The notes beneath the pieces are model-generated. The model saw nothing but the letters and a program-made list of their open reading frames with translations, searched no databases and was not told the origin of the DNA. A DNA stretch of 64,000 bases, from contig CAMVKH010000002.1 of NCBI GenBank assembly GCA_947168065.1, forward strand, positions 62,001 through 126,000, in the 5' to 3' direction. Positions 48,100-64,000 of this stretch are shown here, in pieces (position 1 is the first letter of the stretch; each line of letters opens with the position of its first letter). Origin of the DNA: an uncultured Bacteroidales bacterium (GTDB lineage: Bacteria; Bacteroidota; Bacteroidia; Bacteroidales; UBA932). The translations under genes and the position numbers were made by a program.

Positions 48100-48107
48100 T
48101 AATTTTG
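48100..48107 (+). promoter_or_regulatory. -7 element TAATTTTG of the response regulator gene
   Basis: Matches TAnnTTTG. A possible TTG start at 48105 falls inside it, so ATG 48117, 9 bases further on, is the start and the leader is very short. Confidence 0.55.
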
Positions 48108-48116
48108 GCTTCGCTT

Positions 48117-49448
48117 ATGACGCTCAGAAAGGGAAAAATCCTTATTGTAGATGACAACGCCGGCATCCGCCAGGCGTTGCAGATCCTGTTGCCGGCGCAT
48201 TTTTCGGAGGTGGAAACGCTGCCTTCTCCGAGGACACTGGTCGGCATGCTGGAGCATTTCCGGCCCGACGTGGTGCTGCTGGACATGAATTTCAACACTT
48301 CGATCAATACGGGAAATGAGGGCCTTTACTGGGCCGGGGAGATCAAGAAGATGATGCCGGAAGTGGAAGTGGTGCTGTTTACGGCCTATGCCGACATCCA
48401 GCTGGCGGTGGAAGGCATGAAGCGCGGCGCTTTCGATTTCATCGTGAAGCCCTGGGACAACGACAAACTCATCGAGGTGCTGACCGCAGCGCGGGACAAG
48501 GCCCGGAAGGCGATGGGGCGGGATGAACGGAAGGCCGATGCACCGGCTGGCGACAGCCCGATGTTCTGGGGCAGTTCCAAGGCGATGGCAGCCATCCGGA
48601 AGACCATCGACAAGATTGCCCCGACCGATGCCACCGTCCTGATTACGGGCGAGAACGGTACCGGCAAGGATGTGCTGGCGCGGGAGATACACGCGCACAG
48701 CCTCCGAAGCGGGAAGCCGATGGTCGCCGTTGACGCAGGCGCCATTACGGAGACGCTGTTCGAAAGCGAATTGTTCGGCCACGTGAAAGGCGCTTTCACC
48801 GATGCGCACACGGATCATGTGGGCAAGTTCGAACAGGCCGACGGCGGCACGCTCTTCCTGGATGAAATCGGCAATATTCCGTTGCACCTGCAGGCCAAGC
48901 TGCTGCGGGTGATCCAAAACCGCAACGTGGTGCGCGTGGGTGGCACGCAGGCCATTCCGGTGAACATCCGGCTCATCTGCGCAACGAACATGGACCTGGC
49001 GGCACTGGTCCGGGAAGGACGCTTCCGCGAGGACCTGTATTATCGAATCAATACGGTCCATATCGCACTGCCGTCGCTCCGGGAACGCCGGGAGGACATC
49101 GTGCCGCTGGCGGAGCTGTTCCTGGAACGCTTTGCCCGGAAGTACCACCGGCCTTTGCGCGGCATCGCTCCCGATGCGGCAGCCATGCTGACGGAAGGTC
49201 GCTGGAACGGCAATATCCGCGAACTGCAGAACTGCGTCGAGAAGGCGGTCATCCTGTCGGAAGGAACGGTCCTGGCTCCGAAAGATTTTCAGTTGGATGT
49301 CCGGGTGGTACCTGACATGACGGGAGACGAGGAACGGCAGGTCCGCGAAGCGGTCGCACGCTGCAACGGCAATATCTCTGCTGCCGCCAAGATGCTGGGC
49401 GTCAGCCGCCCTACGCTCTACGCCAAAATGAAGAAATACGGGCTGTAA
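48117..49448 (+). CDS. NtrC-type sigma-54-dependent response regulator
   Basis: 443 residues from ATG 48117. The receiver domain has Asp12-Asp13 (IVDDN), the phosphorylation site Asp56 (VVLLDMNF) and the switch KPWDNDKL. The AAA+ domain (about 140-370) has Walker A GENGTGKD, a GAFTDA loop (the sigma-54 contact loop, usually GAFTGA), Walker B GGTLFLDEIGNI and arginine fingers near LRERREDIVPLAELF. The Fis-type HTH (about 405-441) reads ARCNGNISAAAKMLGVSRPT. The kinase gene follows 3 bases later. The expected target is the sigma-54 promoter at 50430-50445 in front of the TolC gene. Confidence 0.95.
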   Translation: MTLRKGKILIVDDNAGIRQALQILLPAHFSEVETLPSPRTLVGMLEHFRPDVVLLDMNFNTSINTGNEGLYWAGEIKKMMPEVEVVLFTAYADIQLAVEGMKRGAFDFIVKPWDNDKLIEVLTAARDKARKAMGRDERKADAPAGDSPMFWGSSKAMAAIRKTIDKIAPTDATVLITGENGTGKDVLAREIHAHSLRSGKPMVAVDAGAITETLFESELFGHVKGAFTDAHTDHVGKFEQADGGTLFLDEIGNIPLHLQAKLLRVIQNRNVVRVGGTQAIPVNIRLICATNMDLAALVREGRFREDLYYRINTVHIALPSLRERREDIVPLAELFLERFARKYHRPLRGIAPDAAAMLTEGRWNGNIRELQNCVEKAVILSEGTVLAPKDFQLDVRVVPDMTGDEERQVREAVARCNGNISAAAKMLGVSRPTLYAKMKKYGL

Positions 49449-49451
49449 TCT

Positions 49452-50327
49452 ATGTCCACCTGGCAAATCATCCTTCTCTGCGTCATCGTTGCCGTCATCG
49501 CGGCAGTGATTGCGACCCTCCGGACCCGCCGGAGGGACATCAAGAAGGTGGCCTACATGATGGATGCGATGGAGGACGGGGAACTGAATTTCCGTTTTCA
49601 GGACAGAAATAAGTTCAACCGTACGCTGAACCGCATCCGGACCATCTTCGAGAAACAGCGCCAGGCCCACGAGCAGGATTCCTGGACCAAGCTCATCCGC
49701 GTGCTCACGCACGAGATCATGAATACGGTGTCGCCCATCGCCTCCTTGAGCGATTATCTGTCCAAATCGATCGAAGAGGACGACTATCGCAAGGAGGATA
49801 TCCGGACGGGGCTGGACACCATCAGTGATTCGTCCAGGAACCTCATCAAGTTTGTGGAGACCTACCGGCAGCTTTCCGGCGTGGCCAAGCCGGTCCGTCA
49901 CGCCATCGATCTGCAAGAGCTGATGGACAAGGTGATTTCGCTGGACAGCGAGTATGCCGCCAGCTGTGGCGCCACTTGCCTGTATCGTCCGGAGGAGGAC
50001 GACTTGATGATCTATGCCGACGAAGGCCAGATTTCCCAGATACTCATCAACCTCATCAAGAATGCCCTGCAGGCCGGGGCCCGGCACATCGACATCAGCG
50101 CGCGGATGGGGGAAGAGGATGAGACCATCATCCTGGTGGCCAACGACGGCGAAGCGATTCCGGTCTCCGCGCAGGAACAGATCTTTGTGCCGTTCTACAC
50201 CACCAAGCAGGAAGGCTCGGGCATCGGCCTCTCCCTGGCCCGCCAGATCATGCGGCAGCACAACGGCACCATCGACCTCGTCCGGAGCGACGCGGAGCGG
50301 ACGGTCTTCCAGCTGGTGTTCCGATAG
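49452..50327 (+). CDS. Histidine kinase with one transmembrane anchor and no sensory domain
   Basis: 291 residues. One N-terminal transmembrane helix (about 4-22) is followed directly by a short HAMP-like linker and the DHp helix with phospho-accepting His87 in RVLTHEIMNTVSPIASLS. The HATPase domain has N-box ILINLIKNALQAGA, G1 VANDGEAIPV and G2 GSGIGLSLARQIM. It has essentially no periplasmic loop, so it probably reads a signal through the membrane or through a partner such as the downstream transporter. It pairs with the response regulator 3 bases upstream. Confidence 0.93.
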   Translation: MSTWQIILLCVIVAVIAAVIATLRTRRRDIKKVAYMMDAMEDGELNFRFQDRNKFNRTLNRIRTIFEKQRQAHEQDSWTKLIRVLTHEIMNTVSPIASLSDYLSKSIEEDDYRKEDIRTGLDTISDSSRNLIKFVETYRQLSGVAKPVRHAIDLQELMDKVISLDSEYAASCGATCLYRPEEDDLMIYADEGQISQILINLIKNALQAGARHIDISARMGEEDETIILVANDGEAIPVSAQEQIFVPFYTTKQEGSGIGLSLARQIMRQHNGTIDLVRSDAERTVFQLVFR

Positions 50328-50330
50328 GCG

Positions 50331-50385
50331 AAAGTGTAAAGACAGTTGTAAAGAAAGTGTAAAGTCTTGACAGGCTTTACACTTT
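50331..50385. promoter_or_regulatory. Three AAAGTGTAAAG boxes: probable enhancer sites for the NtrC-type regulator
   Basis: AAAGTGTAAAG at 50331-50341 and 50354-50364 in direct orientation, and its exact inverse CTTTACACTTT at 50375-50385. A partial TTGTAAAG is at 50346-50353. The last two form an 11-bp palindrome with a 10-base centre. They lie about 45-100 bases upstream of the sigma-54 -24 box, the normal place for enhancer sites. The palindrome followed by TTTTTG could also terminate the kinase transcript. Confidence 0.65.
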
Positions 50386-50429
50386 TTGTTTTCTAATTAG
50401 TTGATTGTAAATCAGGTTGTTACTTGTTT

Positions 50430-50445
50430 TGGCACGGCGGGTGTT
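50430..50445 (+). promoter_or_regulatory. Sigma-54-type promoter upstream of the TolC-HlyD-permease operon
   Basis: TTGGCACG (50429-50436) is a perfect -24 element. Ten bases after its GG comes GT (50443-50444) in place of the canonical GC of the -12 element, within GTGTT. Predicted transcription start is near 50456, about 19 bases before the TolC ATG. Confidence 0.65.
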
Positions 50446-50474: not shown

Positions 50475-51851
50475 ATGAACAGAATCTTTTTTTTCATAGG
50501 AATTGCTTTAGTTGCCGTGGCCTCCGTCATCGGGACGGAGGCCCGGGGTCAGGAGATGACCCTGCGCGACTGCATGACCTATGCCATTTCGAACTCGACG
50601 AAAATCCGGATCCAGCAGGCGGAGATAGGGGATGCACAGGTGGCGCGGCGCAACGCCGTGCTAAAGGCGTTCACGCCGACCATCAACGGCAGCACCTATG
50701 CCTACTACAATTTCGGCCGCAGCATCGACCCGGAGACCAATATCTATGTCACGGAAACCTCTTTCCACAACGGCTATTCCCTCGGAGCGGGCATCACGCT
50801 GTTCGACGGGTTCAGTGCGGTCAACAACATGAAAATCACCAAAACCGCGCTGGCTATCGGCCAGACGAAAGAGAAGCAGGTGGAAGCCGATATCTGCCTG
50901 GCTGTCATGGAAGCATACTACAATGTGGTCTATTACAAACGCTTGTGTGATATCTATGAAGCACAGGTCTCGGTGGCGGAAGCCACGCTGCGGAAGCTGC
51001 AGAAACAGGAGGGACTGGGCCAGAAAAGCCACGCCGACGTGGTGCAGGCGGAGGCTGAGCTGGCTGACCGGCAGTACGATGCCATCGAGGCACGGAACCA
51101 CTATGCCGACCAGCGCACCAACCTCGGCGACCTGATGTTCTGGCCCGTGGAGCAGGAACTCGTGATCGTGACGGATTTCAATTCCTTCGCCAACGTCCAG
51201 GATGACATCGCGGCCCTTCTGCGGGAGCCCGGTGCGACCGAAGAGTCGCTGATCGTCGATTACGCCCTGGCCAACGATCCCGGGGTGAAGATTGCCGGCT
51301 GGCAGGTGGAAAATGCCCGGCGCGAGCTGGCGACGGCCCGCTGGCAGCTGCTGCCGAGCCTGAGCCTCAACGCGGGCTGGAGTACCAGCTACTTCAACTA
51401 TCCCGGCAAGGACATCCAGGTCGCTCCCTTCCGCGATCAGTTCTGGAACAACCAGGGTGAATACATCCAGTTCTCGATGTCGATCCCCATCTACAACCGT
51501 CTCCAGGGCCACGACAACATCGCGCGCAAACGCAACGCGCTCAAAAAGATGAATGCAGAGTACGACCAGAAGCGGCGCGAGGTGGCCTCCGAGGTGCAGC
51601 GGGCCGTGCAGGACCGGGACGGCGCGTTGTCCGCCTATGAGCAGGCGCTCCGGAAAGCCTCTGTGCAGGAAGAAGCTTACCAGCTCAATGCCAAGAAGAT
51701 GGAGCAGGGCCTGATCTCCTCCATCGAATACCAGACGGCAACGAACAATTACATCCGCGCCCGTGCTGACGAGATGAACTCCCTGTTCAAGTATCTCATC
51801 AAGCAGGCGGTGGTGCGGTATTACAATGGTGTTGAATACATTAACCAATAG
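50475..51851 (+). CDS. TolC-family outer-membrane efflux protein
   Basis: 458 residues from ATG 50475, set by the sigma-54 promoter upstream. Signal peptide MNRIFFFIGIALVAVASVIG then TEARGQEMTLRDCMTYAISN, the usual start of mature TolC-type proteins. Two OEP repeats with long coiled-coil helices follow (KQVEADICLAVMEAYYNVVY; RREVASEVQRAVQDRDGALS). It would form the outer-membrane channel of a tripartite pump with the HlyD-type adaptor next door. Its TAG stop is also the first bases of a dispersed palindromic repeat. Confidence 0.94.
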   Translation: MNRIFFFIGIALVAVASVIGTEARGQEMTLRDCMTYAISNSTKIRIQQAEIGDAQVARRNAVLKAFTPTINGSTYAYYNFGRSIDPETNIYVTETSFHNGYSLGAGITLFDGFSAVNNMKITKTALAIGQTKEKQVEADICLAVMEAYYNVVYYKRLCDIYEAQVSVAEATLRKLQKQEGLGQKSHADVVQAEAELADRQYDAIEARNHYADQRTNLGDLMFWPVEQELVIVTDFNSFANVQDDIAALLREPGATEESLIVDYALANDPGVKIAGWQVENARRELATARWQLLPSLSLNAGWSTSYFNYPGKDIQVAPFRDQFWNNQGEYIQFSMSIPIYNRLQGHDNIARKRNALKKMNAEYDQKRREVASEVQRAVQDRDGALSAYEQALRKASVQEEAYQLNAKKMEQGLISSIEYQTATNNYIRARADEMNSLFKYLIKQAVVRYYNGVEYINQ

Positions 51852-51917
51852 ATCCTTCGCTACGCTCAGGATGACATCATTGTCATTCTGAGGGAACGAA
51901 GTGACCGAAGAATCTAA
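51850..51917. repeat. Complete dispersed palindrome AGATCCTTCG...CGAAGAATCT
   Basis: The left arm includes ATCCTTCG and CTCAGGATGACA; the right arm is TGTCATTCTGAG to CGAAGAATCT, roughly complementary over about 28 bases with a short centre. It occupies nearly all of the gap between the TolC and HlyD genes. The TolC stop codon TAG overlaps its first bases. Confidence 0.75.
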
Positions 51918-51921
51918 AAAT

Positions 51922-53178
51922 ATGGATAAGATTATCGAGAAGAAAACAGGTTGGCGCGTGGCGTTTACGAAAAAAGCCCTGCCGTGGTGGTTGGGAGCGC
52001 TGCTGCTGGTGTTTATCGTGTATCTGATTGCGCGGCCGAACAACAAGACGCTGCGCGTCGACAAGGACGCGATCTCGGTCAGCACGGCCGTGAAGGGCGA
52101 GTTCAACGACTATATCCGCATCAGCGGGCGCGTACAGCCGATGACGACCATCCAGCTTTCGCCCCAGGAAGGCGGTATCGTGGAGAAGATCCTCATCGAG
52201 GAAGGTTCCCCGGTGAAGGCCGGCGATGCCATTCTCATCTTGAATAACGACAACCTGGACCTGCAGATCCTGAATTCCGAAGCCGAACTGGCCGAGAAGG
52301 AAAACATCCTCCGCAATACGCAGATCCAGATGGAACAGCAGAAACTGGACGTGCGCCAGAATGTGCTGGAGTACGGCACGCAGGTGGAGCGACTGAAGCG
52401 CGCTTACGAGCAGCAGAAAGCCCTCTATGAGGACAAACTCATCGCGAAGGAAGATTACCTGAAAGCTGAAGAAGACTATCGGCTGGCACAACAGAAATAT
52501 GAACTGATCCGCGAACGCTCCAAGCAGGACAGCCTGTATCGCGGCACCCAGATTGACCGCATGGAAGAAAGCCTTGACAATATGCTGCTGAACATGCAGA
52601 TGATCCGCAAGCGCAAATCCAACCTGGTCGTCAAGGCCCCCATCGACGGTGAACTGGGTTTGCTGGACGTGGTCCTGGGCCAGTCCATTGCTGCCGGCAC
52701 GAAGATCGGCCAGATCAACAGCGTGGGTCTGTATAAGGTTGAGGCCCAAATCGATGAACACTACATTGACCGCGTGATCGCAGGCCTGTCCGCCACCTTC
52801 GAGCGCCAGGGCGAAACCTACTCCACCCTCATCCGGAAAGTCTATCCCGAGGTCCGTGACGGCAAGTTCAAGGCCGATTTCAAGTTCGACGGCGAGCAGC
52901 CCGACAACATCCGCGCCGGACAGACCTACTACCTCAACCTCCAGCTGGGCCAGCCCGAAGAAGCCGTCATCATCCCCCGCGGCACCTTCTATCAGAAGAC
53001 CGGCGGCAAGTGGATCTATGTCGTCAACAAAGAGGGCACCAAAGCCGTCAAAAGAGAGATCCGCATTGGCCGCCAGAACCCGCAGTACTACGAGGTCCTC
53101 GAGGGCCTGGAGCCCGGTGAGAAGGTCATCACTTCCGGGTATGACACGTATGGTGATAGTGATGTATTAGTATTCTAA
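51922..53178 (+). CDS. HlyD/RND-type periplasmic adaptor protein
   Basis: 418 residues from ATG 51922; an in-frame GTG at 51901 lies inside the repeat and is rejected. One transmembrane anchor (about 20-38, LPWWLGALLLVFIVYLIA), then the lipoyl/barrel-sandwich half QEGGIVEKILIEEGSPVKAG. A long coiled-coil hairpin (about 115-225) contacts TolC, followed by the second lipoyl half VKAPIDGELGLLDVVLGQSI, a beta-barrel and a membrane-proximal domain. It is a MacA-like adaptor linking the permeases to TolC. Permease 1 starts 3 bases after its stop. Confidence 0.94.
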   Translation: MDKIIEKKTGWRVAFTKKALPWWLGALLLVFIVYLIARPNNKTLRVDKDAISVSTAVKGEFNDYIRISGRVQPMTTIQLSPQEGGIVEKILIEEGSPVKAGDAILILNNDNLDLQILNSEAELAEKENILRNTQIQMEQQKLDVRQNVLEYGTQVERLKRAYEQQKALYEDKLIAKEDYLKAEEDYRLAQQKYELIRERSKQDSLYRGTQIDRMEESLDNMLLNMQMIRKRKSNLVVKAPIDGELGLLDVVLGQSIAAGTKIGQINSVGLYKVEAQIDEHYIDRVIAGLSATFERQGETYSTLIRKVYPEVRDGKFKADFKFDGEQPDNIRAGQTYYLNLQLGQPEEAVIIPRGTFYQKTGGKWIYVVNKEGTKAVKREIRIGRQNPQYYEVLEGLEPGEKVITSGYDTYGDSDVLVF

Positions 53179-53181
53179 GCT

Positions 53182-55503
53182 ATGAAGAGTTTCTGGAATT
53201 TTCTGAAAAAGAATAAGTTATACGGGGCTATCAACCTTGTGGGTCTTACGGTGTCGATGGCGTTCGTGCTCCTGCTGGCGGTGTATATCCAACGGCAGCT
53301 CTCCACGGATTCTTTCCAAAAGAATGCGGACCGGATCTATGCTGTTGCCAGCGAAGATAACGTAAATATGGGCTATTGGCTGGACAAGCATCTTAAGAAC
53401 AACTTTCCTGAAATAGAAAAGGGGTGTTGCGTGGCCAACATCGCATCGGCGGCAGCATTCAACATTAACGGAGAACGAGTCTATGGCAGCACGATGGCGG
53501 CGGACAGCACCTTTTTTGAGATGTTCAGTTATGATTTGGTGGAAGGCAATAAGGCCGACTGGCTCGTGTCCTGGGACCGCTGCATGGTGAGCCGGGAGTT
53601 TGCGAATGCCCATTTCGGGGACAAGGATCCTATTGGCCAGGTCATAACCTTGAATGATAATGCGGATTATCCGCTTACTGTCTGCGGCGTCTATGAAGAT
53701 TTCGGGAACTCCATCCTGAAAGCTCCGGACGTACTGATGCGGGGCGAAATTATGCCCAAGATCAATTCGGCCCATAATGAAAGTATGAGCAACGCCGGAG
53801 GCGGCATCTGCTTTGTGATGGCCTATCCGGGCGCCGACCTTCAGGCTAGGCAGAGTGACATCCTGGATTGGTGCGAAGAGAATTTCTGGGTGTACAAGAG
53901 CCAATACGATAATGTTCGGCTGATTCCTCTCAGGAACATGTATTTCCTGGATGATGGGAATAAAGATTGGACGGAGACCATTCAGTTCGGGAACCGCAGT
54001 TTCGTAAACCTGCTGCTGGCGATGTGCATCCTGCTCCTTGCATTTGCAGTGCTCAATTATATCAATATGACCACCGCCCTCACGGGCTTCCGTGCCAAGG
54101 AAATGGCCACCCGGCGGCTGGTGGGTGCCGACAAGCGCAGCATCTTCCTGAAAGTCATCTCTGAGAGTACGCTCATCTGCGGCATCTCGATGCTGCTGGC
54201 CATCCTGCTGGCGGAGGCGCTCTGTCCGGCGGTTTCCCGCCTGCTGGAATACCAGGTGTCCATTTTCAAGGCAATTACGCCTGTCAATGTGCTGCTGGTA
54301 CTGGGCTTTATCGTGATACTCGGTGTTTTGTCAGGAATTGTACCGGCCCTGCTGATTCAACAGGCGCAGCCCATCGAGATTGTGCGCGGTACGCTCAGGC
54401 TCAAGACCAAGACGGTCTATAGCAAAGTCATCATCATCATCCAGAATGTGGTGGCCGTCGTGATGCTGGTGAGCGCTCTCACGATGGGCCTCCAGATCCG
54501 GCATATGATTTCTGCCGACCTGGGCTACAATACGAAAGACATTCTTGTGGTTGACAATGCCTTTGGCCAGACCGGGCAGATCCGGCCGCTGCTGGACCGC
54601 CTGCGCACGGAACCCTGCGTGGAGGAAGTTGGTCAGGGCGACGGCATTCCGCTGGGAGGAACGAACAACTGGACGATGGAACTGCCGGATGGCCGTTGGG
54701 TATCGTTCCAACAGATCCAAGGAGACGATAAGTATTTCGAAATCCTTGGTCTGAAAGTGAAACAGGACAATCATCAGCGTGCCTACTGGCTCAATGAATA
54801 CGCTTTCAAGCAAATTGGCATAGACGAGACAGCGACGGAATTCCAATCTGCCAAGAATGGTACACGCCTGATTGGGGGCATCTATTACGATTTCAAGATC
54901 CGTCCCCTGGAGGCCGACCAGAGCGCTGCTATGATTTTCAATCACGGGGAGTATCCCGATGACAATTACCCCTGGGTGCTGATTGTAAAAACGACCGGAG
55001 ACCAGGTAGCCGCGAAAAAGCGGGTGGAAGCCATAGCTGGGGAAGTATTTCCGGGCAGGCTCTTCGAAGCCCAGTATATTGAGGAAATGATCGAAGACGG
55101 CTTCGGTGACGAAAGCCGGGTGCTCAAGATTGTCATCATCTTCACGCTGTTGTCCATCCTGGTGAGCGCCCTTGGGCTCTTTGCCATGAGCTCATACTAT
55201 ATGCAGCAGGAGATTCGTAGCGTATCAGTGAAGAAGGTCTTCGGAGCCGATTATTCCGGCGTGCTGAAGGAACTGGTGCTGTCGTTCATGAAGATGGTGG
55301 GCATCGCCTTCGTCATCGGCGTGCCGATTGCCTGGTTCATCATGAATCGCTGGCTCTCCGGCTACGGCCATCGTATTGACCTCCACTGGTGGATATTTGC
55401 CCTCGCCGGACTGGCGGTTGCCATTATTGCTGCGATTAGCGTACTCTACCAGAGCATCAAGACCGCACAGACCAATCCCGCCGAGGCCTTGAAAAAAGAA
55501 TAA
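53182..55503 (+). CDS. FtsX/MacB-type ABC permease 1 (773 residues)
   Basis: It begins MKSFWNFLKKNKLYGAINLV, with the first transmembrane helix at about 17-38. A first MacB-like periplasmic domain follows (FQKNADRIYAVASEDNVNMG), then three or four helices around 265-420 including NYINMTTALTGFRAKEMATRRLVGADK, the FtsX coupling region. A second periplasmic domain spans about 435-650, and three C-terminal helices end TNPAEALKKE. This is a doubled MacB/FtsX layout of about eight helices in one chain. It starts 3 bases after the adaptor and 5 before permease 2. The ATPase is encoded separately at 58013. Confidence 0.92.
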   Translation: MKSFWNFLKKNKLYGAINLVGLTVSMAFVLLLAVYIQRQLSTDSFQKNADRIYAVASEDNVNMGYWLDKHLKNNFPEIEKGCCVANIASAAAFNINGERVYGSTMAADSTFFEMFSYDLVEGNKADWLVSWDRCMVSREFANAHFGDKDPIGQVITLNDNADYPLTVCGVYEDFGNSILKAPDVLMRGEIMPKINSAHNESMSNAGGGICFVMAYPGADLQARQSDILDWCEENFWVYKSQYDNVRLIPLRNMYFLDDGNKDWTETIQFGNRSFVNLLLAMCILLLAFAVLNYINMTTALTGFRAKEMATRRLVGADKRSIFLKVISESTLICGISMLLAILLAEALCPAVSRLLEYQVSIFKAITPVNVLLVLGFIVILGVLSGIVPALLIQQAQPIEIVRGTLRLKTKTVYSKVIIIIQNVVAVVMLVSALTMGLQIRHMISADLGYNTKDILVVDNAFGQTGQIRPLLDRLRTEPCVEEVGQGDGIPLGGTNNWTMELPDGRWVSFQQIQGDDKYFEILGLKVKQDNHQRAYWLNEYAFKQIGIDETATEFQSAKNGTRLIGGIYYDFKIRPLEADQSAAMIFNHGEYPDDNYPWVLIVKTTGDQVAAKKRVEAIAGEVFPGRLFEAQYIEEMIEDGFGDESRVLKIVIIFTLLSILVSALGLFAMSSYYMQQEIRSVSVKKVFGADYSGVLKELVLSFMKMVGIAFVIGVPIAWFIMNRWLSGYGHRIDLHWWIFALAGLAVAIIAAISVLYQSIKTAQTNPAEALKKE

Positions 55504-55508
55504 ATTCT

Positions 55509-57857
55509 ATGAAAGTATTCAGAAAGACAGGCGTTTCGACGCTGATCAATATCCTTGGGATGAGCGTGGCCTTCGCCGCTGCGATGATCCTGATGGTGCA
55601 GGTCCGCTGGGACACGACCTATGACGCCAATTTCGAAGGGCACTCTCAGGTGTTCCGGATGGAGAACAACTGGATGGATAAAGGGCTGTATAGTACCTTT
55701 TTTTCCCGGCCGATCATAGAGGCCGCCAAGGCGGCCAGCCCCAATATCGAGGCGGTGGGGACCTTTGGATGGATGCCCCAGGAGGCGACTCTAAACAAAG
55801 ACGGTGAAGAGACGGTACTAACCGTTCCTTCTGCAAGAGTTGACAGTTCTATGTTCTCCGTGTTCCCATTTGAGTGGGTAGAGGGCTCGGCGCGGGAATT
55901 CACCGCAGGCGAGACAGCTGTCGTGAGCGAGGAATATGCGAAGACATTCTTCGGAAACGAGAGCGCCATCGGCAAAAATTTTAAGGCCGGTAGTGGCGAG
56001 CAGGTCCGTGTGATTGGTGTCTTTAAGGATTTGCCCCAAAATTTCAGCATGCACTATGGCGTGCTTGTCAATCTGGGGGACGATTGCCTTGATTCGCCCA
56101 ATGAGTGGTCATTCGCCGCTTATTTGAAAATAAAAGACCCGTGCCGGGCCAAGGAAACGGAGGGGATGATGGTGAATACCATTCTGGAACAATACGGTGA
56201 CGATCACGATGCCGATGAGACAGATGAATTCCGCAGAGGATTCCGTATCGTTAACCTGCATAATGCCCATTTTGAGCGTGATGTGAGGGCCAATATCGCC
56301 AGCGCCAACAAGGCGATTACCATTACGCTGGCCGCGATTGCCATCCTGCTCATTATCATCGCCATTATCAACTTTATCAATTTCGCTTTCGCGGAGATTC
56401 CTTTCCGCATCAAGAGCATCAATACTCGAAAAGTGCTGGGCGAAGGACGAGGCTCGCTGATTGGACGGCAACTGATGCACGCCGGGCTTATCGCGCTCAT
56501 TGCATTTGCGGTTGCCTGCCTCATCATGCACGTAGTGGCAGGAACTTCCTGGGCATCGTATGTGTCGGACAGCTTGTCACTGAAGAATAATGTCGGCATC
56601 CTGGCGCTGATGCTGGGCGTGGCGCTGATCTCGGCCGTCATCGCCGGTCTTGCCCCGGCCCTGTATTCCACATCCCAGCCTGCCGCATTGGTCTTGAAAG
56701 GTTCTTATGGAACCAGCGTGAAGGGAAAGGCTCTTCGCAATATGCTTGTGGGGCTTCAATTTGTATTGTCGTTCCTTTTCATCCTGATGGCCCTGTTTGT
56801 GGGCGTGCAGACCAAGTTTATGATGGGGAAGGACATGGGCTTCGACGAAGCGCGCGTCCTTCAGACTTGGTGCGGATATCAGGCCGGGAACCAGAAAGAC
56901 GCCCTGAGGAGCCATTTGCTTCAGAATCCTTCCATTGAAGCCGTGACTTTCGCTGACGGTCAGATTGTCTCAGACCAGAAGATGGGTTGGAGCCGTCCCG
57001 GGGACGATGGCAACCAGGTATTTATGGAAGTGTTGCCCGTCGATGTCAACTTTATGGAATTCTTTGGCCTGCAACTGGCAGATGGCCGCGATTTCCGTGA
57101 GTCTGACAACCAGAATGAGGCCGGCAGCATCATTCCCAATGAGACCTTCATGCAGATGTTTCCACAGTACCACGTCGGAAGCCTGATGTACGGCCACGTG
57201 GCTAGTTGCGAGATTATCGGTGTTGTGAAGGATTTCAATTTCAAGAGTTTGCAACATGCAATGGGCCCGTTGGTACTTTATAACTGGGGCAAAGATGGGT
57301 GGCGGTCTTTCGCACAAATGTACGTGCGGGCTACGCCCGGGGCCGATTTCAAAGAGGTATCGGATTACATCAAAGAGGCCGTCTGCAAGTTCGACCCCAG
57401 ACGGGAACCCCATATGGTGTCAGTCAGCCATCTGGATGAGAGTATCGAGAAAATGTACCAGAGCGAACAGTCGCTGGGAAAACTTATCACCATCGCCTCC
57501 CTTGTGGCGCTCCTGATTGCCATCATCGGCATCATCGGCCTGGTGTTCTTTGAGACGCAGTTCATCCGCAAAGAGATTGCCGTACGGCGTGTGAATGGCG
57601 CTACTGTGGGCAGCATCTTGAAGATGATAAACAAGAAGTACTTGATAATGGCCGGTGCCAGCTTCGTGATTGCAGCGCCCGTTGCATACTGGCTGATGAC
57701 CGCCTGGCGGAAGGGATTTGCCTATCAGGCACCCGTGCCAGTGTGGATCTTCCTGGTGGCGCTGCTGGCAGTTGCCGCCATTACCCTGGCCGTCGTCACG
57801 CTCCAAAGTTGGAGAGCGGCCAATGCCAACCCCGTAGAATCGTTGAAGAATGAGTAG
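55509..57857 (+). CDS. FtsX/MacB-type ABC permease 2 (782 residues)
   Basis: Same doubled layout: a first helix near 13-30 (INILGMSVAFAAAMILMVQV), a periplasmic domain, and a helix cluster near 260-420 (AIAILLIIIAIINFINFAFA; FRIKSINTRKVLGEGRG coupling region). A second periplasmic domain follows with NFKSLQHAMGPLVLYNW, and three last helices end ANPVESLKNE. It lacks the FLxxNKLYxAI amino end shared by permeases 1, 4 and 5. The TAG stop runs into a dispersed repeat with a 21-bp tandem expansion, before the ATPase gene. Confidence 0.92.
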   Translation: MKVFRKTGVSTLINILGMSVAFAAAMILMVQVRWDTTYDANFEGHSQVFRMENNWMDKGLYSTFFSRPIIEAAKAASPNIEAVGTFGWMPQEATLNKDGEETVLTVPSARVDSSMFSVFPFEWVEGSAREFTAGETAVVSEEYAKTFFGNESAIGKNFKAGSGEQVRVIGVFKDLPQNFSMHYGVLVNLGDDCLDSPNEWSFAAYLKIKDPCRAKETEGMMVNTILEQYGDDHDADETDEFRRGFRIVNLHNAHFERDVRANIASANKAITITLAAIAILLIIIAIINFINFAFAEIPFRIKSINTRKVLGEGRGSLIGRQLMHAGLIALIAFAVACLIMHVVAGTSWASYVSDSLSLKNNVGILALMLGVALISAVIAGLAPALYSTSQPAALVLKGSYGTSVKGKALRNMLVGLQFVLSFLFILMALFVGVQTKFMMGKDMGFDEARVLQTWCGYQAGNQKDALRSHLLQNPSIEAVTFADGQIVSDQKMGWSRPGDDGNQVFMEVLPVDVNFMEFFGLQLADGRDFRESDNQNEAGSIIPNETFMQMFPQYHVGSLMYGHVASCEIIGVVKDFNFKSLQHAMGPLVLYNWGKDGWRSFAQMYVRATPGADFKEVSDYIKEAVCKFDPRREPHMVSVSHLDESIEKMYQSEQSLGKLITIASLVALLIAIIGIIGLVFFETQFIRKEIAVRRVNGATVGSILKMINKKYLIMAGASFVIAAPVAYWLMTAWRKGFAYQAPVPVWIFLVALLAVAAITLAVVTLQSWRAANANPVESLKNE

Positions 57858-57978
57858 ATCCTTCGCTAACGCTCAGGATGACAAAGAGGTGGCTCAGGAT
57901 GACAAAGAGGTGGCTCAGGATGACAAAGAGGACAGTCTGAATGTTGGCCTGTCATTCTGAACGAAGTGAAGAATCTTT
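57856..57978. repeat. Dispersed palindrome AGATCCTTCG...GAAGAATCT with internal 21-bp tandem repeat
   Basis: Same family as 51850-51917. The left arm's GCTCAGGATGACAAAGAGG unit is repeated three times with period 21 (from 57871, 57892 and 57913). The right arm TGTCATTCTGA to GAAGAATCT follows. The permease 2 stop TAG overlaps the first bases, exactly as in the TolC gene. It fills most of the gap to the ATPase. Confidence 0.75.
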
Positions 57979-58012
57979 AACAATAGAACAAACAATTATA
58001 ACACAAATAATT

Positions 58013-58693
<681 letters not shown>

Positions 58694-58703
58694 GTGCTGT
58701 TGT

Positions 58704-58773
58704 CGTCCCAAAATATGGGACGTCGGCGGCGAAATAGGGGGTAAAATGCTTCTGTCGTCCCCTCATATTGGAC
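58704..58773. repeat. Pair of hairpins between the ATPase and permease 3 genes
   Basis: CGTCCCA-AAATA-TGGGACG (58704-58722) is a perfect 7-bp stem. A weaker GTCC...GGAC (58757-58760 and 58770-58773) follows about 35 bases later. The two-hairpin spacing recalls the elements at 16227 and 61179, but the CGAAAAAACAG core is absent, so kinship is uncertain. It could modulate expression of permease 3. Confidence 0.5.
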
Positions 58774-58809
58774 ATCAGGAGTACTGTACAACAAGCAGCT
58801 GAATAGAGA

Positions 58810-61173
58810 ATGAAAACAAAAAGCGATATCATCATCAAGGTGCTGTCCCTGGGAGTAGGGCTGGCCGTGGGCATCGTGCTCATTGCCAAGGTGTTCTTTG
58901 AGCTGAGTTACGACAGCTTCTACAAGGATATCGACCGGGTGTACACCATTCGGACCTGGTACTCACAGAATGGGGACGAGAAAGATTATGGCCAGGTCAG
59001 TGGCGGCGTAGCCGTGGGCTTTATGGAGGAAGTTCCAGGCGTAGAGGCGGGTACGCGTACGACGTTTATTTTCAACGGCGACACCTACCTGGACGAACAA
59101 GGGAACAAACTCAAAGGGACCCTTGTCTGTGCCGACACGTGCTTTTTCAAAGTATTTGACCGGCCTATTCTGGCAGGAGATCCGGTGAAGGCGCTGGGGA
59201 AATGGGGCTGTGTGGTGGTAAGCCGGAGCTTTGCCGAGAAGTTGGCCGAGGAGATTCCGGGTCAGGCCCGGAATGACGTATCTTCCGTCATCGGCAAGCA
59301 GATCGCCAATGCCGATGTGGAAGAGTTGAAACTGACCATCGAGGGTGTCTTTGAGGACTTCCCGAAGAACGGCAGCCTGGACTACGACATCCTCCTTTCG
59401 ATGACCACCTACAACAAGGAGAGCACGGACAACTGGCTGGGTAACGACCGATATCGGGGCTATGTAAGACTGATGCCGGGCATTGATCCCACTACGCTGT
59501 CCGATGCCATTCGCAAGATGCAGGAGGCACACCAACCTATGGAACAGATTGAGGCGATGGGCCTTCAGCTGAGCTATTTCCTCTCCCCTTTCAGCACGAT
59601 GCACACTTCCTCCCGGGAAGTAAAGACGCAAGTGATCCTCTTGTCCATCGTCGCTGCGCTGCTGATCATCATCAGCCTGCTGAACTACATCCTGATCGTG
59701 ATTTCATCCCTGGTGAAGCGCTCCAAGGAAGTGGGCGTACGGAAGTGCTATGGCGCTGAAAGCAAGCATATCTACGGAATGCTGACGAAGGAGGCCCTCT
59801 TGCATATCATTCTTTCACTGGGCCTGGCCGCCATTATCATCTTCGCTGGACGCGGGATTATTGAGAACCTGCTGGGCGTGCCGTTCCAGACGCTGCTGGT
59901 GCCGCAGAGTATCGTGGCCATCGGCCTGCTGGTCCTGTTCGTGCTGATCATCTCGATCGTCGTTCCAGCCGAACTCTACCAGCGAATTCCGGTCTATGCG
60001 GCGCTGAAGAACTATACAGAGAATTCCCGCCGCTGGAAGCTGGGTCTGCTGGGCGTGCAGGTGCTCATCAACGTGTTCCTGGTGGTGATGATGATCCTCA
60101 TCGGCCGCCAGTACCAGAAGGTGTCCCACGCCGACACAGGTTATGACTACAAGAACCTGTACTACTTCGACCTGTTTGACAGAGACCGGCAGGCACTGTT
60201 AAGGGCCTACCAGACCCTGAAGAGCCTCCCCGAGGTAAGCGGCGTAGCGGCCAGCTACAATCTGCCTTATCAAGGATCCAGTGGGGACAACGTCTCTCTT
60301 CCCGGCGAATATAAAGAACTGTTCAACATCGCCGATCAGTATGAATGCTCTCCGGAGTTTTACGAGCTGTTGGGCATCCAGTTCCTGGATGGCCGGGCGC
60401 CGCGGGACTCCAGCGAAGTGGCTGTTGACGAGAAATTTGTGGCCCGGATGTCCGACTTTACCGACTGGTCCGACGGCGCTGTAGGCAAGCAGGTGTTCAT
60501 CACCGGCCACGACAGCCAGGAAAATCCGGAAATGAGCTATTTCACCATCTCCGGGGTTTACAAGAGCTATCTGATCGGAAACCTGCAGTATGTGGATGAA
60601 CGGCCCAGTGCCCTGTTCTATGGTGAGATTGGAAGTATGAACTCCTGGTTGCCGCACACCCTCTTCAAGGTACGCCCGGATGCGCTCGAGAAAGTGCGCG
60701 GCGCTTTGAAGGAAGCGTTGCCGGACAAGGAAATCAACATCGTTTCTTATGCAGAGCAGATGCGTTCCGCCTACGCCGACAGCAAGAAGATGCGCAATAC
60801 GATGGCGCTGGGCGCCGTGTTTTCCTTGCTGATCGCGCTGCTGGGACTCATCGGCTTCATCCGTGACGAATCGCTGCGCCGCAGCAAGGAGATGGCTGTC
60901 CGAAAGATCAACGGCGCCACCACCCGGGACATCCTGCGCGTATTTGCCAGGGAAATCATGAAACTGTCCGCCGTGATGGCTGTCATCGCCTGCATCGCCG
61001 CCTACTTCGTGGCGCACAAGTGGCTGGAGCAGTTTGCCGAAAAGGTATCGCTCAATCCGCTGTATTTCATCGGCGGAGCCGCTCTGGTGCTGCTGATTGT
61101 ACTGGGCGTGGTAGTCCTGAACTGCCTCCGCATTGCCCGGGCCAATCCAGTGGAATCGCTAAAGAATGAATAA
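58810..61173 (+). CDS. FtsX/MacB-type ABC permease 3 (787 residues) with an in-frame repeat insertion
   Basis: Doubled MacB/FtsX layout: a first helix near 10-28 (VLSLGVGLAVGIVLIAKVFF), a first periplasmic domain starting SYDSFYKDIDRVYTIRTWYS, and a helix cluster near 275-430 (LNYILIVISSLVKRSKEVGV coupling region). A second periplasmic domain follows, with C-terminal helices ending ANPVESLKNE. Around residues 148-157 the sequence EIPGQARNDV comes from a dispersed palindrome (59254-59274) and is absent from the sister permeases at the same place (compare AKTFFGNESAIG in permease 2). The frame is intact. Confidence 0.92.
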   Translation: MKTKSDIIIKVLSLGVGLAVGIVLIAKVFFELSYDSFYKDIDRVYTIRTWYSQNGDEKDYGQVSGGVAVGFMEEVPGVEAGTRTTFIFNGDTYLDEQGNKLKGTLVCADTCFFKVFDRPILAGDPVKALGKWGCVVVSRSFAEKLAEEIPGQARNDVSSVIGKQIANADVEELKLTIEGVFEDFPKNGSLDYDILLSMTTYNKESTDNWLGNDRYRGYVRLMPGIDPTTLSDAIRKMQEAHQPMEQIEAMGLQLSYFLSPFSTMHTSSREVKTQVILLSIVAALLIIISLLNYILIVISSLVKRSKEVGVRKCYGAESKHIYGMLTKEALLHIILSLGLAAIIIFAGRGIIENLLGVPFQTLLVPQSIVAIGLLVLFVLIISIVVPAELYQRIPVYAALKNYTENSRRWKLGLLGVQVLINVFLVVMMILIGRQYQKVSHADTGYDYKNLYYFDLFDRDRQALLRAYQTLKSLPEVSGVAASYNLPYQGSSGDNVSLPGEYKELFNIADQYECSPEFYELLGIQFLDGRAPRDSSEVAVDEKFVARMSDFTDWSDGAVGKQVFITGHDSQENPEMSYFTISGVYKSYLIGNLQYVDERPSALFYGEIGSMNSWLPHTLFKVRPDALEKVRGALKEALPDKEINIVSYAEQMRSAYADSKKMRNTMALGAVFSLLIALLGLIGFIRDESLRRSKEMAVRKINGATTRDILRVFAREIMKLSAVMAVIACIAAYFVAHKWLEQFAEKVSLNPLYFIGGAALVLLIVLGVVVLNCLRIARANPVESLKNE
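59254..59274. repeat. Dispersed palindrome ATTCCGGG-TCAGG-CCCGGAAT inside permease 3
   Basis: A perfect 8-bp stem with a 5-base loop, followed by GACG as at 21979-22004. Stem bases differ between the two copies while pairing is kept. Read in frame it gives IPGQARND, a peptide seen as a stray insert in many bacterial proteins. Confidence 0.7.
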
Positions 61174-61178
61174 GATTT

Positions 61179-61261
61179 CCATCCTCATATTAGACCTGTC
61201 TTGAGGATGGAAGCCGAAAAAACAGGCCGCCATCCTCAAATAAAGGCCCAAATGAGGATGG
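61179..61261. repeat. Two-hairpin repeat element with CGAAAAAACAG core, copy 2
   Basis: Hairpin A: CCATCCTCA (61179-61187) with TGAGGATGG (61202-61210). Core: CGAAAAAACAG (61215-61225), flanked by GCC/GGC. Hairpin B: CCATCCTCA (61230-61238) with TGAGGATGG (61253-61261). Same order and spacing as copy 1 at 16227-16307, with changed stem bases. It fills the gap between permeases 3 and 4. Confidence 0.75.
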
Positions 61262-61282
61262 AGCCAAATTTGAAGCAACGAC

Positions 61283-63592
61283 ATGAAAAGCTATCTGAAG
61301 TTTCTCTCCCGCAACAAACTCTACACCGCCATCGAGGCGGTGGGGCTGGCCGTGAGCCTGGCGTTTGTGTTGCTGACCGGGCATTTTGTGTGGCAACAGC
61401 GGCTGATGACGCGGAACGTGCCGGACTATCAGGATGTCTATACCTTCTACCGGTCGACCGGAACACGCTCTGGCATCGGCCAGTCCTGGGGTTTCGCCTA
61501 CCAGGCCAAAGAGAGCATTCCCGAAGTGGAAAAAGCCGCGATGTTCTGGAAGGCGCGACAGAACGAGGAAGATATAGCTGAAGTTGGCGGGCAGAAATAC
61601 CACGTCAGCAGCTATATGGTGGGTGGGGATTTCTTCGACATCTTTCCGGCCGAGTTCGACTACGGCGGCCCCGAAGTGCTCACGGATATCTCCAATGTCA
61701 TCGTCAGCCGCGCCTTCGCAAACAGCTTGGGCGGGGTGGAGCAAGCCTTGGGCAGGACCCTCGACGGAAAATATACGATTGCGGCCATTGTCAAGGAGAC
61801 GCCCAATCCCATCTTCGGCGATGTCGATATCATCTCCAGCATCGAAAACCTGACCAACCGGAAAAACGCTCCGTATATGCTCGACGTCATTCCCTTCGTC
61901 AAAGTCCGGAAGGGAACCGACCGGGCGGCGCTGGAGGTTAAGGCCGACACGCTGGTCGCCCGGGCATTCGAGGTATTCGGGGCCAGGGAGTTCCTGAACG
62001 ACAGCGGCCTGATCCGTTATGACGAAATCTGGTTCTCGCCCGCCAACAACCAGTCCCTGCGACAGGGAAACCCGCTGTTCACGGGCGTCATCCTGCTGGT
62101 CACCATCATCCTTCTGTTGTCGGCGATATTCAATTACATCAACCTCAACGTAGCGCTTTCCAGCAAGCGCGCCAAAGAGATGGCCACCCGCAAGATCCTC
62201 GGGGCGGGAGAAAAGGCCCTGATCGGTGGCTACCTCCTGGAATCCTTCGCCTTCACAGCGATCTGCTTCCTGCTGGCAGTGCTGCTTGCCGAGGCTTGCA
62301 CGCCCTGGTTCAACCGGATCATCGGTGCCGTCGTGCCTGTGATGGTACAGTACACCCCGGGATGGCTGGCTGTTTATGCTCTGTTTATTGTTCTGATCTC
62401 AGTAATCCAGGGTCTCCTGCCGGCCTGGCTCGGCACGCGGATGCCAGCCATTGCCGTGGTCAAAGGAGAGTACCGCGCCCGGCACAAACACGTGTTCAGC
62501 AAGGTGTTCATCGTGTTGCAGCAGGTCTTCTCCATTATCCTGCTGGCCCTCGCCCTGATCCTCGGCCTGCAGGTCTCGCACATGGCCCATCGCCCGATGG
62601 GTGTCGATGTGGATGGTGATTTCTACATACAACTTGATAACTGGGATCTGCGTGACATCTTTGCCGAGCAGGCGGCATCCCTATCCTGTGTCAACCGGAT
62701 CGGTCGCAGCACCTATTTCCCGGGAATGGCAGAAGAATGGGAATCGGAAGACAAGGACAAGGGTAAGATCAAGATGGCCATCATCACCTGCGACAGTACG
62801 GCGTTTGACATCTTCGGTTTCGATGTCCGGGAAAGGTACCAGGAACCGGTGGAAGGTACCGTGTGGATTTCCGAGCAGGAGATGACGCGTTTCGGCATCG
62901 ACCGGAATACCGAGAACCTGAAATACCACCACGTGCTGGGCGAATCCCTCGGCGGCATTATCGGCGACTTTGCGGCGATCGATGTGCTTTCCTATGGCTC
63001 GGACGTGGGCAGTTACGTGATCATCAGCCCCGTGGAGGAGTTGTACGGCCTGCTGATCGAGACGACCGGTGACCGGGCGGAGGCCGAACGCCAGTTGAAA
63101 GATCTTCACCAGGAACTATGTATGAAATACCTGGGAATCGAGGAGAAACCCTATATGTTCGGCTACATTTCGGATATCCTTTCGGAGGGCCTGACGGAGG
63201 TACGGGCGCGCCTGAAGCTCGTCGAAGTGTTCATGCTGCTGAGCCTGCTGCTTTCCGTATTGGGCCTGACCGCCATGAGCAGCTACTACGCAAACGAGAG
63301 CGCGAAAGATATCGCCATCCGGAAGGTCTTCGGCAGCACGATGCAGGATGAGGTCCGCAAGTCGGTCCTGGAGTATCTCACGCTGCTGGCAATCGCGGCG
63401 TTTGTCGCTGTCCCGATCGCCATTTATCTGGCCGCCCGGCTGCTGGAGCCGTATCCGTACCGGGTATCCGGCTGCGGCTGGGTCTTTATCGCCGCCGTGG
63501 CCATCGCAACGCTCATCGCTTTCGCCTCCGTCCTCTGGCAGACCTTGAAAGCCGCGAAGACGGATCCGGCTGTAGAGTTGAAAAAAGAATAG
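61283..63592 (+). CDS. FtsX/MacB-type ABC permease 4 (769 residues)
   Basis: It starts MKSYLKFLSRNKLYTAIEAV with the first helix at about 18-35. The first periplasmic domain has VPDYQDVYTFYRSTG; a helix cluster near 265-410 includes NYINLNVALSSKRAKEMATR, the coupling region. A second periplasmic domain follows, and three last helices (LLSLLLSVLGLTAMSSYYAN) end TDPAVELKKE. It is closest in N- and C-terminal pattern to permeases 1 and 5. Codons 8-29 are nearly identical in DNA to permease 5. Permease 5 begins 1 base after its stop. Confidence 0.92.
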   Translation: MKSYLKFLSRNKLYTAIEAVGLAVSLAFVLLTGHFVWQQRLMTRNVPDYQDVYTFYRSTGTRSGIGQSWGFAYQAKESIPEVEKAAMFWKARQNEEDIAEVGGQKYHVSSYMVGGDFFDIFPAEFDYGGPEVLTDISNVIVSRAFANSLGGVEQALGRTLDGKYTIAAIVKETPNPIFGDVDIISSIENLTNRKNAPYMLDVIPFVKVRKGTDRAALEVKADTLVARAFEVFGAREFLNDSGLIRYDEIWFSPANNQSLRQGNPLFTGVILLVTIILLLSAIFNYINLNVALSSKRAKEMATRKILGAGEKALIGGYLLESFAFTAICFLLAVLLAEACTPWFNRIIGAVVPVMVQYTPGWLAVYALFIVLISVIQGLLPAWLGTRMPAIAVVKGEYRARHKHVFSKVFIVLQQVFSIILLALALILGLQVSHMAHRPMGVDVDGDFYIQLDNWDLRDIFAEQAASLSCVNRIGRSTYFPGMAEEWESEDKDKGKIKMAIITCDSTAFDIFGFDVRERYQEPVEGTVWISEQEMTRFGIDRNTENLKYHHVLGESLGGIIGDFAAIDVLSYGSDVGSYVIISPVEELYGLLIETTGDRAEAERQLKDLHQELCMKYLGIEEKPYMFGYISDILSEGLTEVRARLKLVEVFMLLSLLLSVLGLTAMSSYYANESAKDIAIRKVFGSTMQDEVRKSVLEYLTLLAIAAFVAVPIAIYLAARLLEPYPYRVSGCGWVFIAAVAIATLIAFASVLWQTLKAAKTDPAVELKKE

Positions 63593-63593
63593 T

Positions 63594-64000
63594 ATGAAAA
63601 GTTACCTTAAATTCCTCTCCCGCAACAAGCTCTACACCGCCATCGAGGCGGTGGGGCTGGCCGTGAGCCTGGCGTTTGTGATCATCATAGGTTCCTATGT
63701 ATGGCAGCAATATGCCGTGACGCGGGAGCATCCGGACCGGGAGCGGGTTTATGTGCCTGGGACGCCGGGATTCCCTGCGCTGACGTATGGTTTCCCTGAT
63801 GCCATTGGGGACATTCCGGAAATTGAGTCCGTTTCCAGGATGTGCAATGTAGCTGTACATCCAGTCATTCGGGGAGAGAATACGGAGGCAGAAAGCGTTG
63901 GCGTAGAACCGGCGTTCTTTGAGATATGTCCTCAGTTTCGTTTTGTAGAAGGCTCCGCAGATGTGCTTTCAGCTCCGACCCATGTCATTCTTTCGGCCTC
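63594..64000 (+). CDS. FtsX/MacB-type ABC permease 5 (C-terminus off the window)
   Basis: ATG at 63594, one base after the permease 4 stop; 135 codons are visible before the right edge. The product begins MKSYLKFLSRNKLYTAIEAV, with one transmembrane helix (about 18-36) and the start of a MacB-like periplasmic domain (REHPDRERVYVPGTPGFPAL ... EPAFFEICPQFRFVEGSADV). This matches the corresponding part of the other permeases. Length and further genes of the operon are unknown. Confidence 0.88.
   Translation, partial: MKSYLKFLSRNKLYTAIEAVGLAVSLAFVIIIGSYVWQQYAVTREHPDRERVYVPGTPGFPALTYGFPDAIGDIPEIESVSRMCNVAVHPVIRGENTEAESVGVEPAFFEICPQFRFVEGSADVLSAPTHVILSA

Follow-up and report, generated by a model that had tools for sequence, protein, structure and literature searches.

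The window, i.e. the whole 64,000-nucleotide stretch of DNA analysed here (G000:C2:62001-126000, from a 77%-complete draft genome of 2.02 Mb that its named relatives place as Bacteroidales-like), ends in a string of transporter genes on the + strand that adjoins two regulatory genes. The first of these (48105..49448, +) codes for an NtrC-type response regulator with receiver, sigma-54 activator AAA+ and Fis-type HTH domains (Pfam Response_reg, Sigma54_activat and HTH_8), which also adjoins strings in many relatives, and the second (49452..50327, +) for a histidine kinase (Pfam HATPase_c). They are followed, all on the + strand, by the genes for a TolC-type outer membrane exit duct (50475..51851; Pfam OEP in two stretches), a HlyD-type periplasmic adaptor (51916..53178; Pfam HlyD_3), the permeases P1 (53182..55503, 773 aa) and P2 (55509..57857, 782 aa), an ATPase (58013..58693, 226 aa; Pfam ABC_tran), and the permeases P3 (58810..61173, 787 aa) and P4 (61283..63592, 769 aa), before the window edge truncates the operon within P5 (63594..64000, +). 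An earlier reading of this DNA, made from the letters alone (sequence-only reading), had described TolC, adaptor, P1, P2, ATPase and P3 to P5 as lying in one direction with a single visible ATPase, and all of these genes are present in this orientation at the coordinates given above.

Reading contig C2 beyond the window, as had been proposed, completed P5 (C2:125594-127891, 765 aa) and added P6 (C2:127929-130265, 778 aa) and P7 (C2:130369-132753, 794 aa), after which a convergent gene on the opposite strand (C2:132764-134443) closes the string. The order in the genome is TolC-HlyD-P1-P2-ATPase-P3-P4-P5-P6-P7, i.e. seven permeases and one ATPase, with intergenic gaps of 1 to 155 nt from TolC to P7. 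The ATPase remained the operon's sole one: no second ATPase gene, let alone one for each permease, follows P3-P7 up to the end of the string, and the nearest further ATPase-like match on C2 is located at C2:145008 on the opposite strand. Other related ATPases in the genome are 51%, 46% and 43% identical to that of the operon. The genome also contains the start of a second operon, truncated by the edge of contig C9 (G000:C9:40000-50505, L017). It comprises regulator, kinase, TolC, an adaptor 96% identical to the adaptor of the first operon, and 82 N-terminal residues of a P1-like permease; a search of the assembly revealed no double permeases beyond these. Beyond the sequence-only reading, the analysis adds two more permeases, the regulatory genes, a putative promoter and an apparently cassette-like behaviour of the permease genes.

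Some permease junctions (57860-57990, 61175-61282 and L016:7266-7368) hold short palindromic or direct repeats; at 57871-57931 a 21-bp repeat is present in 2.9 copies, and near-identical repeats occur at two junctions of genome G004. Between 46,000 and 64,000 no RNA element was detected with Rfam families at the gathering threshold. We also considered an anti-phage system and rejected it, as the seven permeases and the kinase gave no PADLOC match; the ATPase had 12 PADLOC matches (best mad3, 1.5e-33), which we read as generic ABC/AAA similarity.

Architecture of the permeases

According to the sequence-only reading each permease is a doubled MacB/FtsX chain of about 770-790 residues, and eight hydrophobic helices are indeed predicted in all seven permeases, with lengths of 765-794 aa. 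Pfam detected FtsX in P1-P4 and MacB_PCD in P1-P3 and the P5 fragment; in P4, FtsX is the sole Pfam match at E<=0.001, MacB_PCD being absent at that cut-off. AlphaFold2 models, made for two of the seven (P1: 53 aligned sequences, mean pLDDT 83.5, pTM 0.72; P2: 38 sequences, mean pLDDT 85.9, pTM 0.78), exhibit eight long helices and two periplasmic domains. The best full-chain fold match of these models in the PDB is YbbP (9ge6, 9ge7) with moderate TM-scores of 0.38-0.46 (rmsd 11-14.5), and MacB, LolE and HrtB match about one half. Matches of a search with the P1 alignment profile include 3is6, the solved periplasmic domain of a Porphyromonas gingivalis permease, as well as MacB, LolF and LolE. 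As predicted from their sequences, each permease is a fused pseudo-dimer with two periplasmic domains, each half being a four-helix FtsX unit, and with FtsX units, a MacB-type core and four helices per unit the permeases belong to the Type VII (MacB/FtsX) ABC superfamily. Having two four-helix units and two periplasmic domains, one chain can replace a MacB dimer. In YbbAP two ATPase copies serve one fused permease, according to the available part of the report (PMC12646458), and this precedent together with the pseudo-dimer in each chain implies that one permease suffices for a transporter. A review on MacB states, in the excerpt available, that fused two-unit permeases always have the ATPase as a separate protein (PMC5985334), and the operon fits this rule.

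The seven permeases share 19-44% identity, and over the 21 permease pairs the mean identity is 19-20% in the periplasmic domains versus 30-31% in the helix and coupling regions. P2 and P6 deviate from the other permeases in the coupling motif of the N-half, as if one half were specialised. This deviation and the co-occurrence of the permeases in one string would suit a heteromeric assembly, which the sequence-only reading had offered as an alternative and in which different permeases form one mixed complex. Both halves are, however, already contained in each chain, and number and identity of the permeases vary by genome, a variation hard to reconcile with a mixed complex of fixed composition. 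A heteromeric assembly is thus the less supported of the two proposals, and we consider it very unlikely.

We also asked if most permeases might be redundant or decaying copies from tandem duplications. Broken permease frames occur in relatives, e.g. L046, L059 and L095, where they may be contig errors. By contrast, all seven frames of the operon are open, and comparison with the four orthologs listed gave dN/dS values of 0.07-0.08 (P1), 0.09-0.21 (P2), 0.10-0.13 (P3), 0.09-0.14 (P4), 0.05-0.11 (P5), 0.06-0.14 (P6) and 0.08-0.12 (P7), the value of 0.21 deriving from a pair with a dS of only 0.03. Moreover, the best ortholog elsewhere scores 1599-1742 bits for each permease, whereas paralogs in the own genome reach no more than 623 bits. 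These results imply that the permeases are distinct, maintained and under purifying selection, and that they should be mostly non-functional copies, the second objection raised beforehand, is highly improbable.

Comparison with known systems

For all seven permeases the best NCBIfam model is ADOP (TIGR03434), with 131-222 bits against a cut-off of 622, followed by DarB with 33-75 bits against a cut-off of 700. ADOP permeases likewise are duplicated FtsX/MacB permeases, and the ADOP cut-off is missed here; to our knowledge, ADOP genes lack a neighbouring ATPase. The best named family of the ATPase is DarD (NF038007, 283 bits, below the cut-off of 375) and that of the adaptor is DarC (NF038010, 209 bits, below the cut-off of 450), the adaptor being above the cut-off of the broad adaptor model TIGR01730 (147.5 versus 94.9 bits). 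DarBCD, the darobactin exporter, shares with the operon a separate ATPase, a HlyD-type adaptor and a long permease, but it has one permease gene, as far as the available text describes it (PMC9055067), versus seven here. It also differs in that TolC and a regulator pair adjoin the string here and that the cut-offs of DarB, DarC and DarD (NF038008, NF038010 and NF038007) are missed.

YbbAP, a Type VII ABC system of E. coli, resembles the operon in its fused permease, its two periplasmic domains and its separate ATPase. In the part of the YbbAP report available, however, the permease has ten helices including a linking pair and TesA as partner (PMC12646458), whereas eight helices, TolC and an adaptor are found here. 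MacAB-TolC has in common with the operon an adaptor, a TolC-type duct and MacB_PCD and FtsX domains, with the adaptor and TolC genes being adjacent here. MacB, in contrast, combines ATPase and four-helix permease in one chain that forms a homodimer, whereas here a fused double permease is accompanied by a separate ATPase. ECF transporters use one energy unit for several substrate-specific subunits. They and MsmK resemble the operon in this respect, but are importers with other folds. Another related gene group is PG0682-PG0685 of P. gingivalis. According to the available passages (PMC12040651) it forms one operon in which an ATP-binding protein is encoded along with an FtsX-like and two other ABC permeases, i.e. 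three permeases versus seven here; we liken the two by this description only.

The Type VII ABC superfamily, the tripartite layout and PG0682-PG0685 with its three permeases are already known. New here, as far as the literature search tells, are the scale, the untied numbers of motors and permeases, and a similarity limited to gene ends combined with reordering. The conservation of a sigma-54-like site and a palindrome before TolC, next to the genes of an NtrC-type regulator and a sensorless kinase (see below), is new as well. No literature on strings of several FtsX permeases in Bacteroidetes or on their concerted evolution was found in this search, whose coverage mostly stops short of subscription journals.

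Permease and ATPase numbers in relatives

A profile of the seven permeases matched 39 of 61 genomes (own genome included) at E<=1e-40, and a search with the adaptor matched 24 of the 61 at E<=1e-20. A scan of named genomes gave 79 loci, the best of 531 confirmed stretches, whose titles mostly name Bacteroidales or Bacteroidia drafts, many of them ruminant, and some Salinivirgaceae; one of them (L131) is an isolate genome of Bacteroides caecigallinarum that carries the operon. We annotated 123 loci (L015-L137) by script and dropped six copies of other loci, leaving 117. Near-identical strains were kept and the window's own operon was included, so that the strings counted below are not independent. 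A string is a run of genes on the same strand with gaps of up to 1.2 kb, and pieces of permeases were counted, too.

In the 92 strings that contain a minimum of two permeases or pieces, one ATPase of at least 300 bits was present in 46, two in two (L113, L129) and none in 44; lowering the threshold to 150 bits changed these numbers to 49, three (adding L028) and 40, respectively. The strings with one ATPase have 2 to 9 permeases or pieces. An end cuts 29 of the 44 ATPase-less strings. Of the 30 strings that lie completely within the fetched stretch, 14 have one ATPase, one has two and 15 have none, and for 11 of these 15 the entire stretch lacks an ATPase of at least 150 bits; a permease string and its ATPase may, however, be more than 1.2 kb apart. 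At 300 bits, exactly one ATPase is found in 46 of the 48 strings that have any. The ATPase is hence often absent and hardly ever doubled, and its number does not follow the number of permeases. Order and content of the permeases vary widely among the relatives, as does the permease next to the ATPase, all seven types adjoining it somewhere.

The sequence-only reading had suggested that permeases with different heads share one motor. The counts of ATPases and permeases fit this suggestion, but the ATPase-less strings also fit motors that are encoded elsewhere. In a corresponding alternative only the permeases near the ATPase form a tripartite pump, and the others use other ATPases or are separate transporters that share a transcript. 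Permease strings frequently lack an ATPase (44 of 92, and 15 of the 30 uncut ones), related ATPases of 43-51% identity are encoded elsewhere in the genome, and ATPase sharing in trans has a precedent in MsmK, as described in the accessible text (PMC4519317). On the other hand, it is not a fixed permease type that lies beside the ATPase, and strings that have an ATPase nearly always have exactly one. We regard this alternative as unlikely, and favour one motor for several permeases.

The largest string observed, in L110, has nine permeases (one cut) and one ATPase. In L033 and L034 three tandem permeases are accompanied by an NtrC-type regulator in the stretch, and no ATPase match is found within 19-20 kb; in total, eleven uncut strings are of this kind. 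A search for a conserved accessory gene within the strings yielded 117 ORFs in gaps that fall into 78 clusters, none of which is widely conserved; the largest, with 7 members, looks by eye like a non-coding frame. Other gap ORFs resemble, again by eye, PIN, AAA, Fic and GIY-YIG passengers.

Evolution of the permease genes

The first 29 residues of P4, P5 and P7 are identical, and at this start 71-86% of 28 codons are identical as well, versus 40-44% among identical residues in the middle of the genes. We compared these heads in 161 of 277 permeases, picked by their N-terminal motif and giving pairs that are not independent. At 25-35% protein identity the first 87 nt reach an identity of 85% or more in 18 of 46 pairs within a locus versus 1.1% of 7495 pairs between loci, and at 35-45% protein identity in 25 of 63 versus 12% of 3399 pairs. 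When classes were matched per locus, within-locus similarity was higher for heads in 34 of 40 loci (median +0.05) and for tails in 32 of 40 (+0.065). Five control windows lean likewise (24-30 of 40 loci, +0.005 to +0.029; strongest at codons 700-728, p 8e-6), so that the effect at heads and tails is the largest, but modest. In L110 the first 87 nt of the six permeases compared are 84-95% identical, even across subfamilies.

Comparison with G004 revealed a different order, P3-P5-P6-P4-P7 versus P3-P4-P5-P6-P7 here, and a dS that differs from gene to gene (P2 0.03, P3 0.64, P4 0.18, P5 0.03, P6 0.13, P7 0.67). The block of P4 that matches G004 comprises almost the whole gene and 11 nt upstream, and the block of P5-P6 extends into the first 87 nt of whatever permease comes next. 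One break of the match lies inside P3, near C2:121219, away from the gene ends. The intergenic stretch upstream of P7 moves with P7 (98% identical), and two junctions in G004 bear repeats that are 96% identical. The simplest reading of these patterns is that recombination may occur at the ends of the permease genes. With near-constant ends, diverged middles, mosaic divergence and order changes at the ends, the permease genes seem to behave like cassettes.

Putative regulation of the operon

Upstream of TolC we identified a sigma-54-like site (TGGCACGGCGGGTGT, 50430..50444, +) by the relaxed pattern TGGCA-N7-TG[CT] and an inverted repeat (GTGTAAAG...CTTTACAC, 50352..50387) by a terminator scan and palindrome comparison. 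The strict sigma-54 consensus with one mismatch allowed has no match in the window. The relaxed promoter and palindrome patterns were defined after the sites had been seen, and are set beside controls and genome-wide scans. TGGCA-N7-TG[CT] is found before TolC in 30 of 36 loci, as compared to 45 of 7200 shuffles, and before other genes in 25 of 435 cases (adaptor 3/49, ATPase 1/57, regulator 2/40, kinase 0/20, permeases 19/269). In 28 of the 30 loci a TGTAAA...TTTACA palindrome lies about 90 nt (83-104) above the site. Scanning four genomes for TGTAAA-N3-7-TTTACA gave 12 places. Judged by position, three of them precede TolC, four precede a small secreted protein, one precedes the second operon's regulator, and the remaining four are at other sites; the controls gave one, in G000. 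CTTTACA-N30-60-TTTGGCA matches 14 times in eight genomes (seven upstream of a TolC of such operons, two upstream of the small secreted protein, one between permeases, four without assignment) versus three times for the reversed control, and in the own genome twice only, upstream of the two TolC genes.

An rpoN gene is present in the genome, and the operon is probably under sigma-54 control. The link to sigma-54 is not new in itself, since a 2025 study has already reported an enrichment of COG0577 antimicrobial-peptide permeases among the sigma-54 targets predicted for Bacteroidia (PMC12316311, in the part available). The inverted repeat is a candidate for an enhancer of the regulator and/or a terminator of the kinase gene. 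Seven terminator-like stems lie on the + strand between 48,000 and 64,000, the longest of which (16 pairs) precedes TolC, with the other six being inside genes; on both strands there are 19, versus a mean of 13.9 in shuffles.

The kinase is predicted to have a single membrane helix and lacks a periplasmic sensor domain. Among 43 distinct kinases (relatives and own copies) 36 have one helix, four have two or three, and three have none. An alternative is a Bce-like role in sensing and resistance: some permeases would recognise antimicrobial peptides or lipids of the envelope and pass a signal on to the sensorless kinase, instead of or along with export. This alternative is compatible with an exporter. 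The one-helix kinase without periplasmic domain in 36 of the 43, the regulator and kinase genes adjoining many strings, and the COG0577 enrichment (PMC12316311, same passages) are in line with it. BceB, however, has ten helices and one extracellular domain, versus eight and two in the permeases here, and the presence of an NtrC-type regulator, TolC and an adaptor also argues against it. We take a Bce-like role for a serious possibility that nevertheless falls short of being probable.

Proposed mode of action

The explanation we prefer, and hold to be somewhat probable, is that of a regulated tripartite Type VII exporter in which one ATPase, one adaptor and one duct serve alternative fused permease heads; the sharing of one motor, the cargo and the signalling by the kinase are elements that we infer. 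Two copies of the single ATPase would dock on whichever permease is present, ATP-driven helix movement would work the periplasmic domains, and what the permease has captured from periplasm or membrane would leave through the shared adaptor and duct. As the periplasmic domains are where the permeases diverge most, these would define different cargo. Expression would be switched on by the adjacent NtrC-type regulator via the palindromes located roughly 90 nt upstream of the promoter, and the kinase, having no sensor domain, would read the state of the membrane or of the transporter. Over evolution, permease genes would be exchanged, lost and reordered in a cassette-like manner, the breakpoints being at their conserved ends. 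In view of the many ATPase-less strings some permeases may use motors that are encoded elsewhere.

If the motor is shared, the operon would be an exporter counterpart of the shared-motor importers, present in gut-associated Bacteroidales drafts and in L131. Its orthologous permeases would also form a natural set in which to study the choice of cargo by Type VII periplasmic domains, and the operon would exemplify how transporter heads under a single regulator are gained, lost and reordered as modules. More tentatively, and with no more than limited confidence, we suggest a plug-in exporter, where one motor, adaptor and duct are combined with a changing magazine of permeases encoded by cassette genes and where the regulator also drives a secreted partner in some species. 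The near-constant gene ends, flanking variable middles that encode the periplasmic parts, would then act as shared sequence arms by which a lineage swaps whole heads and changes its export repertoire.

Further sites of the palindrome and promoter patterns

The small protein mentioned above (about 100-120 aa; L138:1667-2005, also L150-L155) is encoded in 6 of the 61 genomes and absent from this draft. Its N-terminus looks like a signal peptide by eye, and the one sequence scanned has a CarboxypepD_reg match under the cut-off. Upstream of its gene the TTTGGCAC box is found in six of six cases, the palindrome pattern in five and the promoter pattern TGGCA-N7-TG[CT] in two. The gene adjoins the regulator in two genomes and lies on a different contig from the permeases in four. 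The small secreted protein is a candidate partner or cargo. In G036 (C3:2808-2875) the palindrome-promoter pattern separates one permease gene from the next, with a small ORF located there as well, which suggests that some operons may have an internal start.
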